DNA from: Gloeobacter kilaueensis JS1
Lineage (GTDB): Bacteria > Cyanobacteriota > Cyanobacteriia > Gloeobacterales > Gloeobacteraceae
DNA length: 64,000 nucleotides
Reading direction: 5' to 3'
NCBI RefSeq assembly: GCF_000484535.1
Contig: NC_022600.1
Location: 2,480,001-2,544,000 of the forward strand
In this document: in pieces, positions 55,357 through 62,843 of the stretch
Position numbering within the stretch: the first letter of the stretch is position 1
Layout of the letters: each line of letters begins with the position of its first letter
Position numbers and translations under genes: made by a program
Notes under the pieces: model-generated
The model's database searches: none
The model's input: only the letters and a program-made list of their open reading frames with translations
Told to the model about the DNA's origin: nothing

Positions 55357-56203
55357 GCGTAACGCTCCTGGGGGAAGGGGCCGATATTTGCTGGAAGGTG
55401 TCGAAATCTGCGCGTTCAAGCAGATCAAGGCCAGACCACTCCAGGACACACGACTCCCCTGGAAGTGGTTGCAGAGAAGGTCGAGATCCAACGGACCATC
55501 AAGACTCTGTCTGCCTTGCGCTGAGGACTATGTCAGGATAAGCAACTCGGCGCGCTCGAATTTGAAGCAACCTGCTACTGCCTCTTAACCTCTAGCGGCA
55601 CCGGGACCAACTTATGCAGTCAGATTCTGAAAAGCACGGTTCTAAGACAACTCTAGGAATGCATTCGCTCAAGATGACCCGCTATCTCATAGCCCCGAAG
55701 GTGTCTGTTTCTAGAAAATTTAGATACCACATAACCGCTGAAACACTGACCCCTCTGGTGCCGGGAGAATAGTTTTAACATGCAGACTGGCTTCAACAAA
55801 TAACACGCCCCTGGGCAGTATTTCGTAGTTTTTGCTACAAACAATTGAGTGCCTGAAGGTTGCGATCCGGGCAGTTCGTGCCTCGTTTCTCCCGTATAAA
55901 GTTGCACTCATCATTCAATTTTTCACTCTTGCCTGTCTAGTTTTTGGGGAAAAATTGGTAGCAAAGCACTAGCTCTTGAACATTCTGCGCAGAGGCGGAG
56001 CGATGCACTGCAGGGGGTCTGTCCGTTCTTGAGTCGATAGAAATATGCCTACATTCTCTCTCATCTGTCCAGGAGCCTGAACAACATGGCACCCAAAGAA
56101 TAGTCAGCTTGAGCGCCGGCCCCTGGCAACAGGGGATCGCCCGATCCAGGTACGATTGAGCAGAAGCAGGCGGCAGGCAACCCGCCTGCCTGGGGGATTT
56201 TTC
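55357..56203. other. Intergenic region between the polysaccharide cluster and the RND gene
   Basis: About 850 bases in the divergent position between the minus-strand zinc-ribbon gene and the plus-strand transporter. It is AT-richer than the genes. Short ORFs occur on both strands but none has a ribosome site or protein-like composition. GTAG-TTTTTG-CTAC forms a small hairpin (55828-55841). Promoters of both flanking units should lie here. Confidence 0.5.
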
Positions 56204-58720
56204 TTGGCAGAAACGCCGCTTCGAGAACGCTTTAATATCTCACGACTGGCTCTCAAGTACCCCTGGTTGACCGTCGGCTTCTGGCTGGCGGTGTCGATCG
56301 GTGGGGCGGTGAGCTTCACCTCGCTCAAGTACGCGCTGTTTCCCGATATCACCTTTCCGGTCGTGGTGGTGAATAGCACCCTTGCCGCCTCCGATGTCGA
56401 GCGGACCGAGGCGCAGCTCACCCGGCCCATCGAGCAGCGGTTGCGCCGGATGACGGGCGTAGACAAGGTGCGCTCCTCCAGCTATCCCGGCCATTCGGTG
56501 GTGAGCCTGTCGCTGGCGGTCGGCACCGATCCCGCCGCCGCCAGCCGCGAGGTGCGGGCGGTGGTTGGGGCGCTGAGCTTGCCTGTGGGCACCCGCTTTG
56601 AGGTGGTGCAAGTTAACCTCAACGAGTCGGCGGTGGTGAGCTACGCCCTCGAAAGCGATACAGCCAATCTCACTGCCCTGGCGGGGATTGCTCGAAGCGA
56701 GATCGTCCCTGCTCTCGAAAAGGTGCCGGGGGTGCTCAAGGTCACCCTTTTAGGCAGCGGCGAAAGTGCAGTGCGCCTGGGTGGCCGCGACGCGCTCGCC
56801 GTGCAGGTGATCAAGCGCGAGAACGCCAACGCGCTGGTAGTCGCCCGCCAGGTCCAGCAGCAGATCGACAGGTTGCACGGGCGCTTCCGGCTGGTACTGG
56901 CCGCCACCCAGGCCGACTACATCCGCGAGGCGAGCCTCGCCACCGTCGAGGCTCTGGCCCTGGCGATTGCCCTCTCGGTGCTCGTGATCTTTCCGTTTTT
57001 GGGGAACTGGCGGGCGACGCTCATCTCCGCCCTGGCGATCCCCACGTCGCTGTTGGGTACGTTCATCGTCATGGCCCTGTTTGGCTTTAACCTTGAGACG
57101 ATTACCCTGCTCGCCCTGGCGCTGGTGATCGGGATCATCATCGACGATGCGATCGTCGATGTCGAAAACATCGCCCGCCACCTCGAAGACGGCGAGCCGC
57201 CGGCGCAGGCAGCGATTGCCGCCACCGACGAGATTGGCCTGACGGTGACGGCGGCAACCCTCACGGTCGTGGCGGTGTTTCTGCCGGTGGGCCTGATGGG
57301 GGGCGTGCTCGGGCAGTTCTTTCGGCCCTTTGGCCTCACCGTCTCGGCGGCGGTGATCACCTCGTTGCTGGTGGCGCGCACCCTCTCGCCCCTGCTCGCT
57401 TCCCGCTGGCTGAAGTCTGGTACCCAGCAGCCAAAATTTTCTGGCTTTCCTTTCTGGCCGCAGGTGATCGAGCGCTACCGCCGCCTGCTCGCCTGGTCGC
57501 TCGATCACCGCCTTGGGGTGCTGGGGATCGCCCTGGCGAGTTTTTTAGGCGGAGTGGCGCTCATCCCCCTCATTCCCAAGGGCTTTATTCCCCACCTCGA
57601 CCGGGGCGAATTTAACGTCAATTACACTGGCGAACTGGGTAGCTCGATCTTTGAATCGCGCCGGGTCGCTGTCGAGATCGAAGCGGCGATCCGCCGTTTT
57701 CCCGAAGTCCAATCGGTCTTCACGACGATCGGAGCAAGCGGCGGCCAGACCCACCGAGGCACGCTCTACGTGCGCCTGCGGGCCGATCGCAAAGTCAAGA
57801 CCTTCGATTTTCAAGACACCCTGCGCGCCCGGCTGCCGCGCCTCGCCGAAGTCGATATCAGCGTCGATGACATTCCCTTTATCGAAAACGGCAGTCAGAA
57901 ACCTGTCGAAGTCGCAATTCTGGGCGAGGATCTATCGCTGCTCAATCGCGGTGCTCTGGCCCTCAAGGACCGCCTCACATCAAAGAGCGGCTTCGTCGAT
58001 GTTGCCCTGAGCGGAGCCGGTCAATACCTGGGCGAGCAGGTCGAAATTAGCCATCTAAACGGCAGACGGGCCATCTACCTCACCAGCAACCTCAACCACG
58101 GCCTGACGATCAACGAGGCGACCGCCCAGATCGAGGCTGCGGCCAGGGCCGTCCTGCCGGCGGGCCTGCGCCTGAGTTTTGGCGGCGACACCGAAAATGT
58201 CTCCAACGTCTTTGGCGGCTTTGCCCTCACCCTGGCTCTGTCGGTTGGCTGCATCCTGGCGGTGCTGATTGCTCTATTTCGCAGTTGGGTCGAGCCGCTC
58301 GTCATCGTGCTGGCCCTGCCCCTGGCCATCGTTGGAGCGATGGTCGCCCAGTTTGTGACCCATAGCGAATTTGGGATGATCTCGGTCATCGGGATCATCT
58401 TTTTGCTGGGGCTGGTCAACAAGAACGCGATTATTCTTGTCGATTACATCAACCAGTTGCGCTCCCGTGGTCTTTCGACCCGCGAGGCGATCCTCCAGGC
58501 CGGTCCGATTCGTCTGCGGCCCATCTTGATGACGACGGCGGCGGCCATCCTCGGCATGGTGCCCATCGCCCTCGGCCTCGGGGCAGGGGCTGAGCTGCGA
58601 TCCCCGATGGCGATTGCGATCATCGGCGGACTGCTCACCTCGACCCTGTTGAGCCTGATCGTCGTGCCCGTCGCCGACAGCCTGATCGCCGATCTAAGAG
58701 CCGGGAAGTATTTTTTTTGA
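56204..58720 (+). CDS. RND-family transporter permease lacking both docking subdomains
   Basis: A TTG at 56204 with GGGGGA upstream gives 838 residues; the frame opens at 56156. AcrB-type permeases have about 1,030-1,050. The membrane parts are complete: TM1, then IIIDDAIVDVENIARHLEDG with the proton-relay Asp pair (314-315), and LVNKNAIILVDYINQLRSRG with the Lys of TM10. In the first periplasmic half the sequence goes from GVLKVTLLGSGESAVRLGGR straight to VQVIKRENANALVVARQVQQ, and in the second from FVDVALSGAGQY to LNGRRAIYLTSNLNHG. By comparison with AcrB these are the places of the DN and DC docking subdomains. No membrane-fusion or TolC gene adjoins it. Confidence 0.88.
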   Translation: MAETPLRERFNISRLALKYPWLTVGFWLAVSIGGAVSFTSLKYALFPDITFPVVVVNSTLAASDVERTEAQLTRPIEQRLRRMTGVDKVRSSSYPGHSVVSLSLAVGTDPAAASREVRAVVGALSLPVGTRFEVVQVNLNESAVVSYALESDTANLTALAGIARSEIVPALEKVPGVLKVTLLGSGESAVRLGGRDALAVQVIKRENANALVVARQVQQQIDRLHGRFRLVLAATQADYIREASLATVEALALAIALSVLVIFPFLGNWRATLISALAIPTSLLGTFIVMALFGFNLETITLLALALVIGIIIDDAIVDVENIARHLEDGEPPAQAAIAATDEIGLTVTAATLTVVAVFLPVGLMGGVLGQFFRPFGLTVSAAVITSLLVARTLSPLLASRWLKSGTQQPKFSGFPFWPQVIERYRRLLAWSLDHRLGVLGIALASFLGGVALIPLIPKGFIPHLDRGEFNVNYTGELGSSIFESRRVAVEIEAAIRRFPEVQSVFTTIGASGGQTHRGTLYVRLRADRKVKTFDFQDTLRARLPRLAEVDISVDDIPFIENGSQKPVEVAILGEDLSLLNRGALALKDRLTSKSGFVDVALSGAGQYLGEQVEISHLNGRRAIYLTSNLNHGLTINEATAQIEAAARAVLPAGLRLSFGGDTENVSNVFGGFALTLALSVGCILAVLIALFRSWVEPLVIVLALPLAIVGAMVAQFVTHSEFGMISVIGIIFLLGLVNKNAIILVDYINQLRSRGLSTREAILQAGPIRLRPILMTTAAAILGMVPIALGLGAGAELRSPMAIAIIGGLLTSTLLSLIVVPVADSLIADLRAGKYFF

Positions 58721-58967: not shown

Positions 58968-59207
58968 ATGCTCTCAGCAGATACGATGCCCAGGTTGTAC
59001 CTCACCGAGTGTGGCGTGGTGTTGTTCCTGCACCTCGGGCTGGCCGAATTCAAAAATTCTCTCTGCGATGCCTGGCAGGCAGCGGTCGAGTTGCTGGACG
59101 GCAGGATGATCACAGGAACCCTTGCCCGCCCGATCGGCGAAGCTCCCGACCTGTTGTGCGCCAACCAGCTCGCAGCCCAGCTCTGGGATCAGAGCCGGGC
59201 CGCTTAG
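58968..59207 (+). CDS. Small hypothetical protein, 79 residues
   Basis: ATG at 58968 with a strong CAGGAGGG ribosome site 8 bases before it; the track frame to 58728 is longer but has no such site. Sequence MLSADTMPRLYLTECGVVLF...CANQLAAQLWDQSRAA. The core LYLTECGVVLFLHLGL is hydrophobic, so this is a soluble mixed fold or a peripheral protein rather than a membrane one. The stop overlaps the convergent ABC gene by 4 bases. The family is unknown. The strong ribosome site makes it likely real. Confidence 0.6.
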   Translation: MLSADTMPRLYLTECGVVLFLHLGLAEFKNSLCDAWQAAVELLDGRMITGTLARPIGEAPDLLCANQLAAQLWDQSRAA

Positions 59208-60952
59208 CTTTCGGACTCCCAGAGCTGCCGCATCTGGGGGCAGGTGCGCAGGAGTTCGTCGAGCTGGCCCTGGGCAATCAGGCGGCCTGCTTCGAGCACC
59301 AGGATCTGATCGGCGCGTTCCAGGGCGACCCGGCGGTGGGAGACGACCAGACAGGTAAGGTCGGGTTGGGTAAAAAGCCGCTTCCAGAGCTGGCTTTCGG
59401 TCTCGACATCGAGGGCACTGGAAAGATCGTCGAAGACGAGGAGCTGGGCGTCGCGCACGAACATCCGGGCGGCAGCGGAGCGCTGCAGCTGGCCACCGGA
59501 GAGCTTGATGCCGCGCGGGCCCACCACCGTGTCGAGTTTGTGCTCCAGCCGCTGGACATCCTGTTCGAGGACGGCAGTGTAGAGCGATCGCTCCAGCCGC
59601 TCCTCCTCACCGAGCAGTCCCTGCCGCACGTTGTCTTCTAAAGTTTCACTAAAAAGGCGCGGCACCTGGGGGGTATAGGCGCAGCGAGGCGGAATAAAAA
59701 ACGAAGCCGGATCGCTTACGCTCTTCCCGTTCCAGCGGATTTCTCCTGCCCGGTGGGGCAGCAATCCCAACAGGACCCGCAACAGCGTCGTCTTGCCCGA
59801 ACCGATGCGGCCAGTGATTACCGTAAACGATCCCCGCCGCAGGACAAAGTCGATCTGATCGATGCCCCGCCGGCTCTCGGGGTGGTGGTAGGTGAGTCCC
59901 CGCACCTCAAGGCGCTGAAAGGGAACATCGGCAGCCGGGGCGGGCAGCAGGGGCGGACTGGTGGTGAGGTATACGGGAGCCGCTGCAACCAGGCGGCGGG
60001 GGTCGCTGCCGGGGAGCAGTTGGGCGAGGCGGGCAAAGGAGACGCTGATTTTTTTGTGCAGGGCGATCAGGTGGCCAAAGGAGTACATCTTGTCGGTGAG
60101 GCGGGTGAGATAGCTGACGAACAAAGCAAAGTCCCCGACGCTGAAAGTGCCGTTGCGCAGAGAACTGGCGACGAGCAGCAGGATGCAGCCCACGCCCAGG
60201 TTAAAGACGCTCTCGCCCAGCGAATCGACCAGTTGGGTGGCGACATTGTCCCGCAGGCTCAGCTTGCGGCGGTGCTCGTTGATCTGCTCGAAGCGATCGA
60301 TGAGGCGTTCTTCGCCGGCAGCGAGCTTGACTGCCAGCACCGAGGCGAACAATTCACCCAAAAAGCCTGTGACCTGGCCGCCGGCCTCGCGGCTGGCCTC
60401 GCGGCAGCGGCGCAGGTATTCCCCCAGAACGTTGGCGGCGACAAAAAAACCGATGAGCGGCAGAGACAGGCAGGCCGTCACCAGCGCATCGATGCGCAGG
60501 AGAATGGCGAGGCTCACACCGACAAAGAGCAACTCTCCCCAGAAGTCCACCCAGCTTTCGAGGTACTCCACCGCCTCGTCGATGTCGTCGCGCAGGCGGC
60601 TTATCGCCTCGCCGGAGGAACCGGGCAGTACCCGCGCCCCCGGTCCCTGCACCAGCCATTCGAGAATATTGCCCCTCAGCCAGGCGGCGATCGTGTAAAG
60701 AAGGGCGGACCAGGTAAGACAGCCGGTCCAGAAGGCGGCCATGCGGGCGACGGCGACGGCAACCAGCAGCGCTATCGGCAGCCAGACGCTCCCGGCACCG
60801 CTGTGGCCCGTAGCCAGGGCGTCGAAGAAGGCTTTGATCGCAAGCCCCGCCACTAGGGGCAGGCTGTGGAAGCAAAGCCAGCAGAGGGTCGTGAGCAGAT
60901 ACAGGCCCAGGCGGTAGCGCAGAAGGCGGCCCAGGTAATACCAGGTATTCAT
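59204..60952 (-). CDS. ABC exporter half-transporter, second gene of a coupled pair
   Basis: 582 residues. The membrane domain (six helices, about 1-300) is followed by a nucleotide-binding domain with ITGRIGSGKTTLLRVLLGLL (Walker A), KLSGGQLQRSAAARMFVRDA (signature) and LLVFDDLSSALDVETESQLW. The Walker B acidic pair is DD rather than DE, so the catalytic Glu is Asp, as in the degenerate site of heterodimeric exporters. The switch His is present (VVSHRRVAL). The ATG overlaps the stop of the partner gene. Together they probably form one heterodimer. Confidence 0.92.
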   Translation of the reverse strand: MNTWYYLGRLLRYRLGLYLLTTLCWLCFHSLPLVAGLAIKAFFDALATGHSGAGSVWLPIALLVAVAVARMAAFWTGCLTWSALLYTIAAWLRGNILEWLVQGPGARVLPGSSGEAISRLRDDIDEAVEYLESWVDFWGELLFVGVSLAILLRIDALVTACLSLPLIGFFVAANVLGEYLRRCREASREAGGQVTGFLGELFASVLAVKLAAGEERLIDRFEQINEHRRKLSLRDNVATQLVDSLGESVFNLGVGCILLLVASSLRNGTFSVGDFALFVSYLTRLTDKMYSFGHLIALHKKISVSFARLAQLLPGSDPRRLVAAAPVYLTTSPPLLPAPAADVPFQRLEVRGLTYHHPESRRGIDQIDFVLRRGSFTVITGRIGSGKTTLLRVLLGLLPHRAGEIRWNGKSVSDPASFFIPPRCAYTPQVPRLFSETLEDNVRQGLLGEEERLERSLYTAVLEQDVQRLEHKLDTVVGPRGIKLSGGQLQRSAAARMFVRDAQLLVFDDLSSALDVETESQLWKRLFTQPDLTCLVVSHRRVALERADQILVLEAGRLIAQGQLDELLRTCPQMRQLWESES

Positions 60953-62697
60953 GTGAGGATTTCCGAAAGATCGTTTGCCAGAAGCCGGGCAAAGCGCGAG
61001 CGGCGGTCGGCGGCGAGGGCGGCGCGCTCGCCCTGCTCGACGATGCGGCCTCCGTCGAGGATCAAGATCCGATCCACCCGGCGAACGGTGCTCAGGCGGT
61101 GGGCGATGATGATGCCGGTGCGCCCCGCCATCAACTGGCGGATCGCCCGCTCGACGCGCTGCTCGGTGGCCGGGTCGAGGCGGGAGGACGGTTCATCGAG
61201 GATCACAAGCCCCGGATCTTTGAGGAGTACCCGCGCAAAGGCCAGAAGCTGAGCTTCCCCGGCTGAAAGTCCCTTTCCGGCGGCCATCAGTTCGGTGTCG
61301 AGGCCGCACTCAAGGCTACCCAGCCAGTTTGCCAGATCGACTTGTTCGAGCGCTGCTATCAGGCGATCGTCGGGAATCTGGCGATCGAAGAAGGTGAGGT
61401 TGTCGCGCACGCTGGCTCGAAACAGCTGCACATCCTGGGTGACGACGCCGACGCGCTCGCGCAACTGGGATCGATGCACGGCCCATAGATCCGTGCCTCC
61501 CAGGCAAATCGTCCCGGACTGCGGCTGCCAGAGGCGCAGCAGCAGGCGCGTCAGGCTGGTCTTGCCGCTGCCGGTGCGGCCCAATAGCCCCAGCACCTGA
61601 CCGGCAGGCAGCTCGAAGCTCAGATCAAAAAGCACCGGTTTGCCCTGGGCGTAGGCAAAGTTCACCCGCTCGAAGCGCACCGCGAGCGCCCCGGCCTCAA
61701 GGCACAGAGCCTCGTGCTCCGGCTCCGGCTGGGACCGGATCGCCAACAGCTCGACGATCCGGCCCAGGCTGGCGGTCGCCTTCTGCAGGTTCGACAGTTC
61801 CGTGGTCAACTGCTCCAGCGGACTCTGCACCAGCTCGGTGTACTGATAAAACAGGTAAGCCGTGCCGAGGCTGATCGCCCCGACCGCGTAGAGCCAGGCT
61901 CCGACCGCGCAGGCGAGCACCCCGCCCAGGGCGAAGATGGCGATCGTGACAAGCCAGAGCAAAGCGCGGCCTGTCCAGGCCCGGCGGCCTTCCTTGTACA
62001 GCGTCGCCATCACCTGCCAGTAGCGGCGCAGGACGTGGGGACCGGCCCCGTTGGCCCGGATGTCGTCCAGGCCCACCAGCCGTTCTTCTAAAAAGCCGAA
62101 TAACCCGGCGCTCGCCTGGCGCTCGGCGCGGATCGCCGCTACGGCCACGTGGCGCACGCGGCTGAGGGCATAGACGCCCAGGGCAGCAAAGAGCACCAGG
62201 GCCAGCCCCGCCTGCCAGTTTTCTATCCAGACGGTGGCGATCGTACCTGCCAGCAACAGCGCCGCACCCATTACCCGCAACAGAAACTGCGAAAAAAAGT
62301 TCGACAGGGCGGTAGTATCGCCGTCGATGCGCTCGATGAGTTCCCCCGGCGTGCGCTCGTGGTGAAAGGCCATCTCCAGCTGCAGACAGTGGCGGGCCAG
62401 ATCGGCGCGCAACTGGTTGGTGGCCGTCCAGCCGACGTTTTCGCCCACCCAGACCACCGCCAGGGCACACAGTTGCTGTACCAGACCAACGGCAAGAAAC
62501 ACCCCCCCAGATCCAAGGAGCACCGGCACCGGCGACCGGGCGAGGGCAGCGTCGATAAAAAAGCGCACCACCTGCGGATTGGCCAGTTGCAGGCCGACGG
62601 TGGCAAAGAGCAAAAGGGCAAGTAACACCACCCTGGGCCACTGCGGCCAGAGATAAAGCGACAGGAAACGTCTGTACTGCTGAAAGGTCAGGAGCAT
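60949..62697 (-). CDS. ABC exporter half-transporter, first gene of a coupled pair
   Basis: Start 62697 (MLLTFQQYRRFLSLYLWPQW) fits a half-transporter N-terminus; a GTG 12 codons upstream (62733) is also possible, and neither has a strong ribosome site. 582 residues. LLGRTGSGKTSLTRLLLRLW (Walker A), LSAGEAQLLAFARVLLKDPG (signature as LSAGE), LVILDEPSSRLDPATEQRVE (Walker B with Glu) and IIAHRLSTV (switch His). This half has the normal catalytic Glu, so it should carry the active ATP site. The exported substrate is unknown; an 18-codon ORF with a strong ribosome site lies 147 bases upstream. Confidence 0.92.
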   Translation of the reverse strand: MLLTFQQYRRFLSLYLWPQWPRVVLLALLLFATVGLQLANPQVVRFFIDAALARSPVPVLLGSGGVFLAVGLVQQLCALAVVWVGENVGWTATNQLRADLARHCLQLEMAFHHERTPGELIERIDGDTTALSNFFSQFLLRVMGAALLLAGTIATVWIENWQAGLALVLFAALGVYALSRVRHVAVAAIRAERQASAGLFGFLEERLVGLDDIRANGAGPHVLRRYWQVMATLYKEGRRAWTGRALLWLVTIAIFALGGVLACAVGAWLYAVGAISLGTAYLFYQYTELVQSPLEQLTTELSNLQKATASLGRIVELLAIRSQPEPEHEALCLEAGALAVRFERVNFAYAQGKPVLFDLSFELPAGQVLGLLGRTGSGKTSLTRLLLRLWQPQSGTICLGGTDLWAVHRSQLRERVGVVTQDVQLFRASVRDNLTFFDRQIPDDRLIAALEQVDLANWLGSLECGLDTELMAAGKGLSAGEAQLLAFARVLLKDPGLVILDEPSSRLDPATEQRVERAIRQLMAGRTGIIIAHRLSTVRRVDRILILDGGRIVEQGERAALAADRRSRFARLLANDLSEILT

Positions 62698-62843
62698 AAA
62701 AAAATTCCCAAAAAGCGGCAAAAAACCAGCCACCGATCGAGCCTGCCCAGAAACAGTGCAGGCAGGCAGCGATGAAAGATAGACGCAAAAGACGGAGGAC
62801 CGCGCCCTAAAGGCTGTCCAGCACGATCAAGATGAGCAAAAAC

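Follow-up and report, generated by a model that had tools for sequence, protein, structure and literature searches.

A shortened RND permease with an intact core

The window analysed here is a stretch of 64,000 nucleotides, positions 2480001-2544000 of the 4.72 Mb one-contig genome of the cyanobacterium Gloeobacter kilaueensis JS1. Near its end lies a real reading frame, open along its full span, which encodes a short RND permease of the HAE1 type (Table 1). Its start codon is preceded by GGGGGA, and an in-frame TTG at 56156 is a possible alternative; the relatives of the protein begin close to the later of these two codons. The protein matches ACR_tran (PF00873) with 580 bits against a gathering score of 28, and reaches 573 bits with NF033617 (RND_permease_2), for which the cut-off is 1250.

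Table 1. Features of the short permease, its surroundings and its sister paralogues (window coordinates unless a contig is given)
Feature	Location	Strand	Remark
Short RND permease of HAE1 type, DN and DC docking subdomains absent	56204..58720	+	838 aa, TTG start
DN-missing junction, residues about 185-189, LLGSGE/SAVRLGG	56756..56770	+	AcrB: 91 residues here
Proton-relay Asp pair D314-D315, TM4 (AcrB D407, D408)	57143..57148	+	
DC-missing junction, residues 608-611, YLGE	58025..58036	+	AcrB: 89 residues here
Proton-relay Lys K740, TM10 (AcrB K940)	58421..58423	+	
Proton-relay Arg R770 and Thr T777, TM11 (AcrB R971, T978)	58511..58534	+	
Two overlapping ABC exporter genes	59204-62733	-	
Squalene synthase-like gene, squalene-hopene cyclase (SHC) and HpnB	G000:C1:2546162-2550834 (window-equivalent 66163-70834)		past window end
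Sister full-length paralogues (L034-L037)	G000:C1 3493114, 4623853, 431606, 1524136		window's own genome

An alignment of the short forms of this permease shows that the porter subdomains PN1, PN2, PC1 and PC2 of the AcrB type are all kept, together with the membrane helices. AcrB D407, D408, K940, R971 and T978 all have their counterparts in each of the 31 short forms, without exception, so the claim of a sequence-only reading of the window that the membrane part and the proton relay are intact stands, and extends to the porter domain.

Most short pumps carry a Pro/Ser-rich insert of 25-60 residues between TM7 and PC1 (alignment columns 540-615). The window protein and the relative L008 have no such insert before PC1, and its absence from the window protein indicates that it is not essential.

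Absence of the docking subdomains

ACR_tran matches the protein in three pieces (profile positions 1-186, 271-708 and 804-1015), and the two gaps between them, 187-270 and 709-803, are the docking subdomains DN and DC. No residue of DN and 4 residues of DC are left in the window protein, against 91 and 89 in AcrB (AcrB numbering 182-272 and 724-812). The 30 aligned short relatives retain 0-31 residues of DN and 0-7 of DC, and the corresponding lengths are 84-97 and 89-95 residues in E. coli AcrB, MdtB, MdtC and CusA and in 20 aligned full-length permeases, 16 from the same genome and 4 from other genomes. The remnant is a variable linker at the DN site and a tight turn at the DC site (YLGE in the window protein).

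An AlphaFold2 model of the protein (24 sequences, pLDDT 83, pTM 0.79) was compared with known folds, and 815-821 of its 838 residues aligned with the best AcrB, AcrD and AdeB chains (residues 1-1033), with an rmsd of 2.6-3.0 and Z of 53-54. HpnN lay outside the best 50 rows of this comparison, which is uninformative either way. Because nearly the whole model is taken up by the AcrB fold, the docking subdomains are absent and not diverged. The alternative that they are present in a diverged form is ruled out by the alignment and the fold comparison, which leave no residues for DN or DC. That both are missing had been claimed from the letters of the window, and the alignment with AcrB and the predicted structure agree with this claim while showing the porter retained. 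The protein is an AcrB-type (HAE1) permease from which DN and DC have been cleanly removed; it is HAE1 by descent, but it is not an HAE1 pump of the tripartite type.

Distribution and origin of the short form

A scan of genome contigs recovered 19 cyanobacterial relatives with 49-57% identity and reading frames of 868-951 aa. With a short-form profile (A1) at a threshold of E<=1e-110, which separates cleanly in the window's genome, where the best full-length permease reaches 5e-89, the short form (about 870-990 aa) was detected in 61 of the 291 cyanobacterial genomes in the sample, spread over 31 genera and 13 families. The recurrence of the same form in 61 genomes rules out a local deletion or assembly error, and refutes the sequencing deletion seen only here that the sequence-only reading had allowed for. 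Outside cyanobacteria, the short form was sought at E<=1e-95 in two phyla, that of L021 (listed as an alphaproteobacterium; 299 genomes) and that of L020 (listed as Anaerolineae; 201 genomes). Neither search, run without its own positive control, returned one, and more distant short forms could escape this threshold.

The short forms make up one group with support 100 in a maximum-likelihood tree, for which midpoint rooting only was used. Its sister (support 99) consists of the four paralogues L034-L037, which have full docking parts (84 and 91-92 residues); AcrB, MdtB and MdtC come next. A single loss of both subdomains within HAE1 would be the simplest reading of this midpoint-rooted sequence tree.

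Gene neighbourhood

The genes around the pump in 20 loci were clustered into families, which were named by NCBIfam. Recurrent neighbours are HpnA (478 bits, cut-off 368), HpnH (548, cut-off 225) and HpnB (577, cut-off 379). Among the 19 relatives, HpnA lies directly downstream of the pump or close to it in 14, HpnH is near it in 12 and HpnB in 7, and an HpnG-like gene is found upstream in 16. The order at the Calothrix locus is SHC, HpnB, HpnG-like, pump, HpnA, HpnH, and another genome (G054) holds one complete block HpnH-HpnA-pump-HpnG-like-SHC-HpnB. In a separate genome sample, the pump was found at most 20 kb from SHC or HpnH in 30 of 61 pump genomes.

The HpnG-like phosphorylase of L001-L019 is divergent and lies upstream of the pump (for example L002:7214-7915, minus strand). 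It scores 78-88 bits, whereas the cut-off for HpnG is 187, and this cyanobacterial protein would therefore be missed by the curated HpnG model.

In the window's genome, the squalene synthase-like gene, SHC and HpnB stand side by side 7-11 kb from the pump. They lie past the end of the window, and the sequence-only reading could therefore not have seen them. SHC (890 bits, cut-off 431) is 8.9 kb downstream of the pump, and HpnB scores 570 bits; HpnH is far off, at 2170724. The pump is near SHC but not in the same operon, and it is directly surrounded by polysaccharide genes and an ABC exporter pair. The exporter genes, directly downstream of the pump and convergent with it, are MsbA-like and probably encode a heterodimer; among the matches shown, none to a curated family is above the cut-off for either gene.

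No membrane-fusion gene occurs within about 9 kb of the pump in the window, as had been noticed before for a partner gene, and none is recurrent beside the pump in the relatives. The fusion gene at L008 was considered as a partner and rejected, since it belongs to a neighbouring CusA-like pump. These observations bear on the idea of a mixed trimer, in which a full-length HAE1 permease would supply the funnel and the complex would still connect with TolC and a fusion protein. RND proteins can form mixed trimers, as MdtB and MdtC do in MdtBC, and among the 16 full-length permeases of the window's genome are the four that form the sister group of the short clade. However, no full-length permease recurs beside the pump any more than a fusion gene does, the permease at L008 being a CusA-like unit that comes with a fusion protein of its own, and the sealing of a docking ring with one part missing cannot be assumed. 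A mixed trimer is in our opinion highly improbable.

Co-occurrence with hopanoid synthesis

Squalene-hopene cyclase was detected in 70 and HpnH in 68 of the 291 cyanobacterial genomes. Pump and cyclase occur together in 61 genomes, the cyclase only in 9, neither in 221 and the pump only in 0. The Fisher value for this co-occurrence, 1.5e-53, is inflated by the shared descent of the genomes and overstates the number of independent events. The pattern does not reflect just one clade, since families f2, f7, f11, f13 and f20, as well as genus g7 within f7, include some members with both genes and others with neither. The nearest full-length paralogue clade (at least 49% identity) served as a control and was found in 43 genomes, with the cyclase in 22 of them; unlike that of the short pump, the occurrence of the L034-L037 clade is only loosely related to hopanoid genes.

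Nine genomes, mostly from two families, possess SHC and HpnH but neither the short pump nor HpnN (G079, G083, G153, G173, G235, G241, G274, G290 and G007); a search for the short pump at 1e-20 returned in them, fragments aside, only full-length permeases. These genomes imply that the pump is not needed wherever hopanoids are made and that other routes must exist. Two further genomes, G046 and G091, have the pump and SHC with no HpnH match.

Two observations on individual genomes can be added. The cyclase match contains one internal TAG in G089, G091, G229, G231, G247 and G239, five of which share one genus; the TAG may be genuine or reflect a frame artefact that arose in the search. In G007, a distant member of the phylum, HpnH adjoins SHC (G007:C87:40656-67639), and about 21 kb off lies an RND permease of full length (1115 aa) that counts among the nearest full-length relatives of the short pumps (2.9e-92).

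The protein could be a minimal multidrug or metabolite pump, acting at the inner membrane or into the periplasm only and having no special link with hopanoids. It does have the fold and sequence of HAE1 drug pumps, its nearest solved relative by sequence being MdtB, and the lack of a fusion gene within about 9 kb would suit such a pump. Against this, all 61 pump genomes encode the cyclase, half of them have the pump near hopanoid genes, and the closest full-length paralogue clade is not so tightly tied to the cyclase. We accordingly give a minimal pump little probability, and the generic pump of no predictable substrate envisaged by the sequence-only reading is not what neighbourhood and co-occurrence indicate. 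Both place the pump in the hopanoid gene set, and they point to transport of a specific lipid, which would be delivered toward the outer membrane and not simply expelled.

Comparison with HpnN and other RND proteins

HpnN (TIGR03480) exceeded its cut-off in none of the 291 cyanobacterial genomes; as a positive control, the same search was over the cut-off in 9 of 31 alphaproteobacteria. At E<=1e-3 the HpnN model does not match the window protein, whose fold and sequence are those of HAE1, so the pump was rejected as an HpnN orthologue. The two proteins are nonetheless alike in several respects. HpnN, a member of the HAE-3 family known from Rhodopseudomonas and Burkholderia, also belongs to the RND superfamily, has about 870 aa and is devoid of DN and DC; its gene lies among hpn genes, as the short pump sits with hopanoid genes, and the same class of substrate is predicted. 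HpnN is a dimer and has extra helical PD3/PD4 inserts in its porter domains (PMC8277102). The model of the pump would leave no room for such inserts, given the share of its residues that follow the AcrB fold. AcrB is a trimer, which DN normally helps to hold together.

HAE1 permeases of the AcrB/MdtB type have the same membrane part, PN1/PN2/PC1/PC2 and proton relay as the pump, with about 25% identity over at least 815 residues. They differ in keeping the docking subdomains, whereas the pump has lost both, has no fusion gene nearby and is tied to hopanoid genes. MmpL3 and other lipid-moving RND proteins likewise lack the AcrB docking part and handle lipids (PMC8277102), but they belong to RND families different from that of the pump, a comparison made here by family scans alone. 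The absence of a docking part has a precedent in the RND lipid transporters HpnN and MmpL3.

A putative hopanoid transporter

We consider it quite probable that the pump transports hopanoids at the cyanobacterial plasma membrane and is driven by protons. The proton relay of the membrane part, whose elements are present and conserved, would power the porter domain. Hopanoids, made at the inner membrane, would enter the porter cleft from the outer leaflet or the periplasmic face, and would be released into the periplasm or to a putative carrier en route to the outer membrane. Its anatomy suggests that a permease without DN and DC, and hence without a funnel to a membrane-fusion protein and TolC, would work without a tripartite conduit, as HpnN does. 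We infer the substrate (hopanoids), the direction (from the plasma membrane toward the outer membrane) and the independence from a TolC conduit. Gloeobacter has no thylakoids, and the presence of the pump in this organism would argue for a job at the cell envelope and not at the thylakoid.

In Nostoc punctiforme, hopanoids concentrate in the outer membrane of akinetes (PMC3883690). In proteobacteria, HpnN acts in outer-membrane delivery according to Doughty et al. 2011, as cited in PMC12583986. With hopanoids reaching the outer membrane and yet no HpnN in any of the 291 genomes, a transporter is wanting in cyanobacteria.

The pump might instead serve the hopanoid pathway without outer-membrane delivery, by flipping hopanoids between leaflets of the plasma membrane, exporting a polar head-group precursor or by-product, or removing membrane intermediates such as squalene. 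The same neighbourhood and co-occurrence would fit such a role, and the two genomes with pump and SHC in which HpnH is missing leave room for plain C30 hopenes, in place of extended hopanoids, as the substrate. However, the known proteobacterial RND protein of the pathway, HpnN, acts in outer-membrane delivery (Doughty et al. 2011, as cited in PMC12583986) and is absent here, and cyanobacterial hopanoids have been reported in the outer membrane (PMC3883690). A pathway role of this kind seems unlikely to us.

For the hopanoid transporter proposed above, a separate origin appears likely: an HAE1 permease without docking part would have become a stand-alone transporter and come to resemble HpnN, by convergence, in role and overall architecture. 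The loss of the docking part from an HAE1 paralogue would have happened a single time, in the ancestor of one cyanobacterial clade, and the paralogue would have taken over a job done elsewhere by HpnN, an RND protein of another family.

Concluding remarks

Hopanoids are the sterol-like bacterial lipids behind hopane fossils, which are used to trace early bacteria, including cyanobacteria. In the open-licence literature, we found neither an RND gene described in the hopanoid clusters of cyanobacteria nor an HAE1 pump devoid of docking subdomains, and no prior candidate for the placement of cyanobacterial hopanoids in the outer membrane; the short pump supplies one. It also suggests that a tripartite drug pump may be turned into a stand-alone lipid transporter by the removal of two subdomains, a change that bears on the diversification of RND families and on the purpose that the docking part serves.
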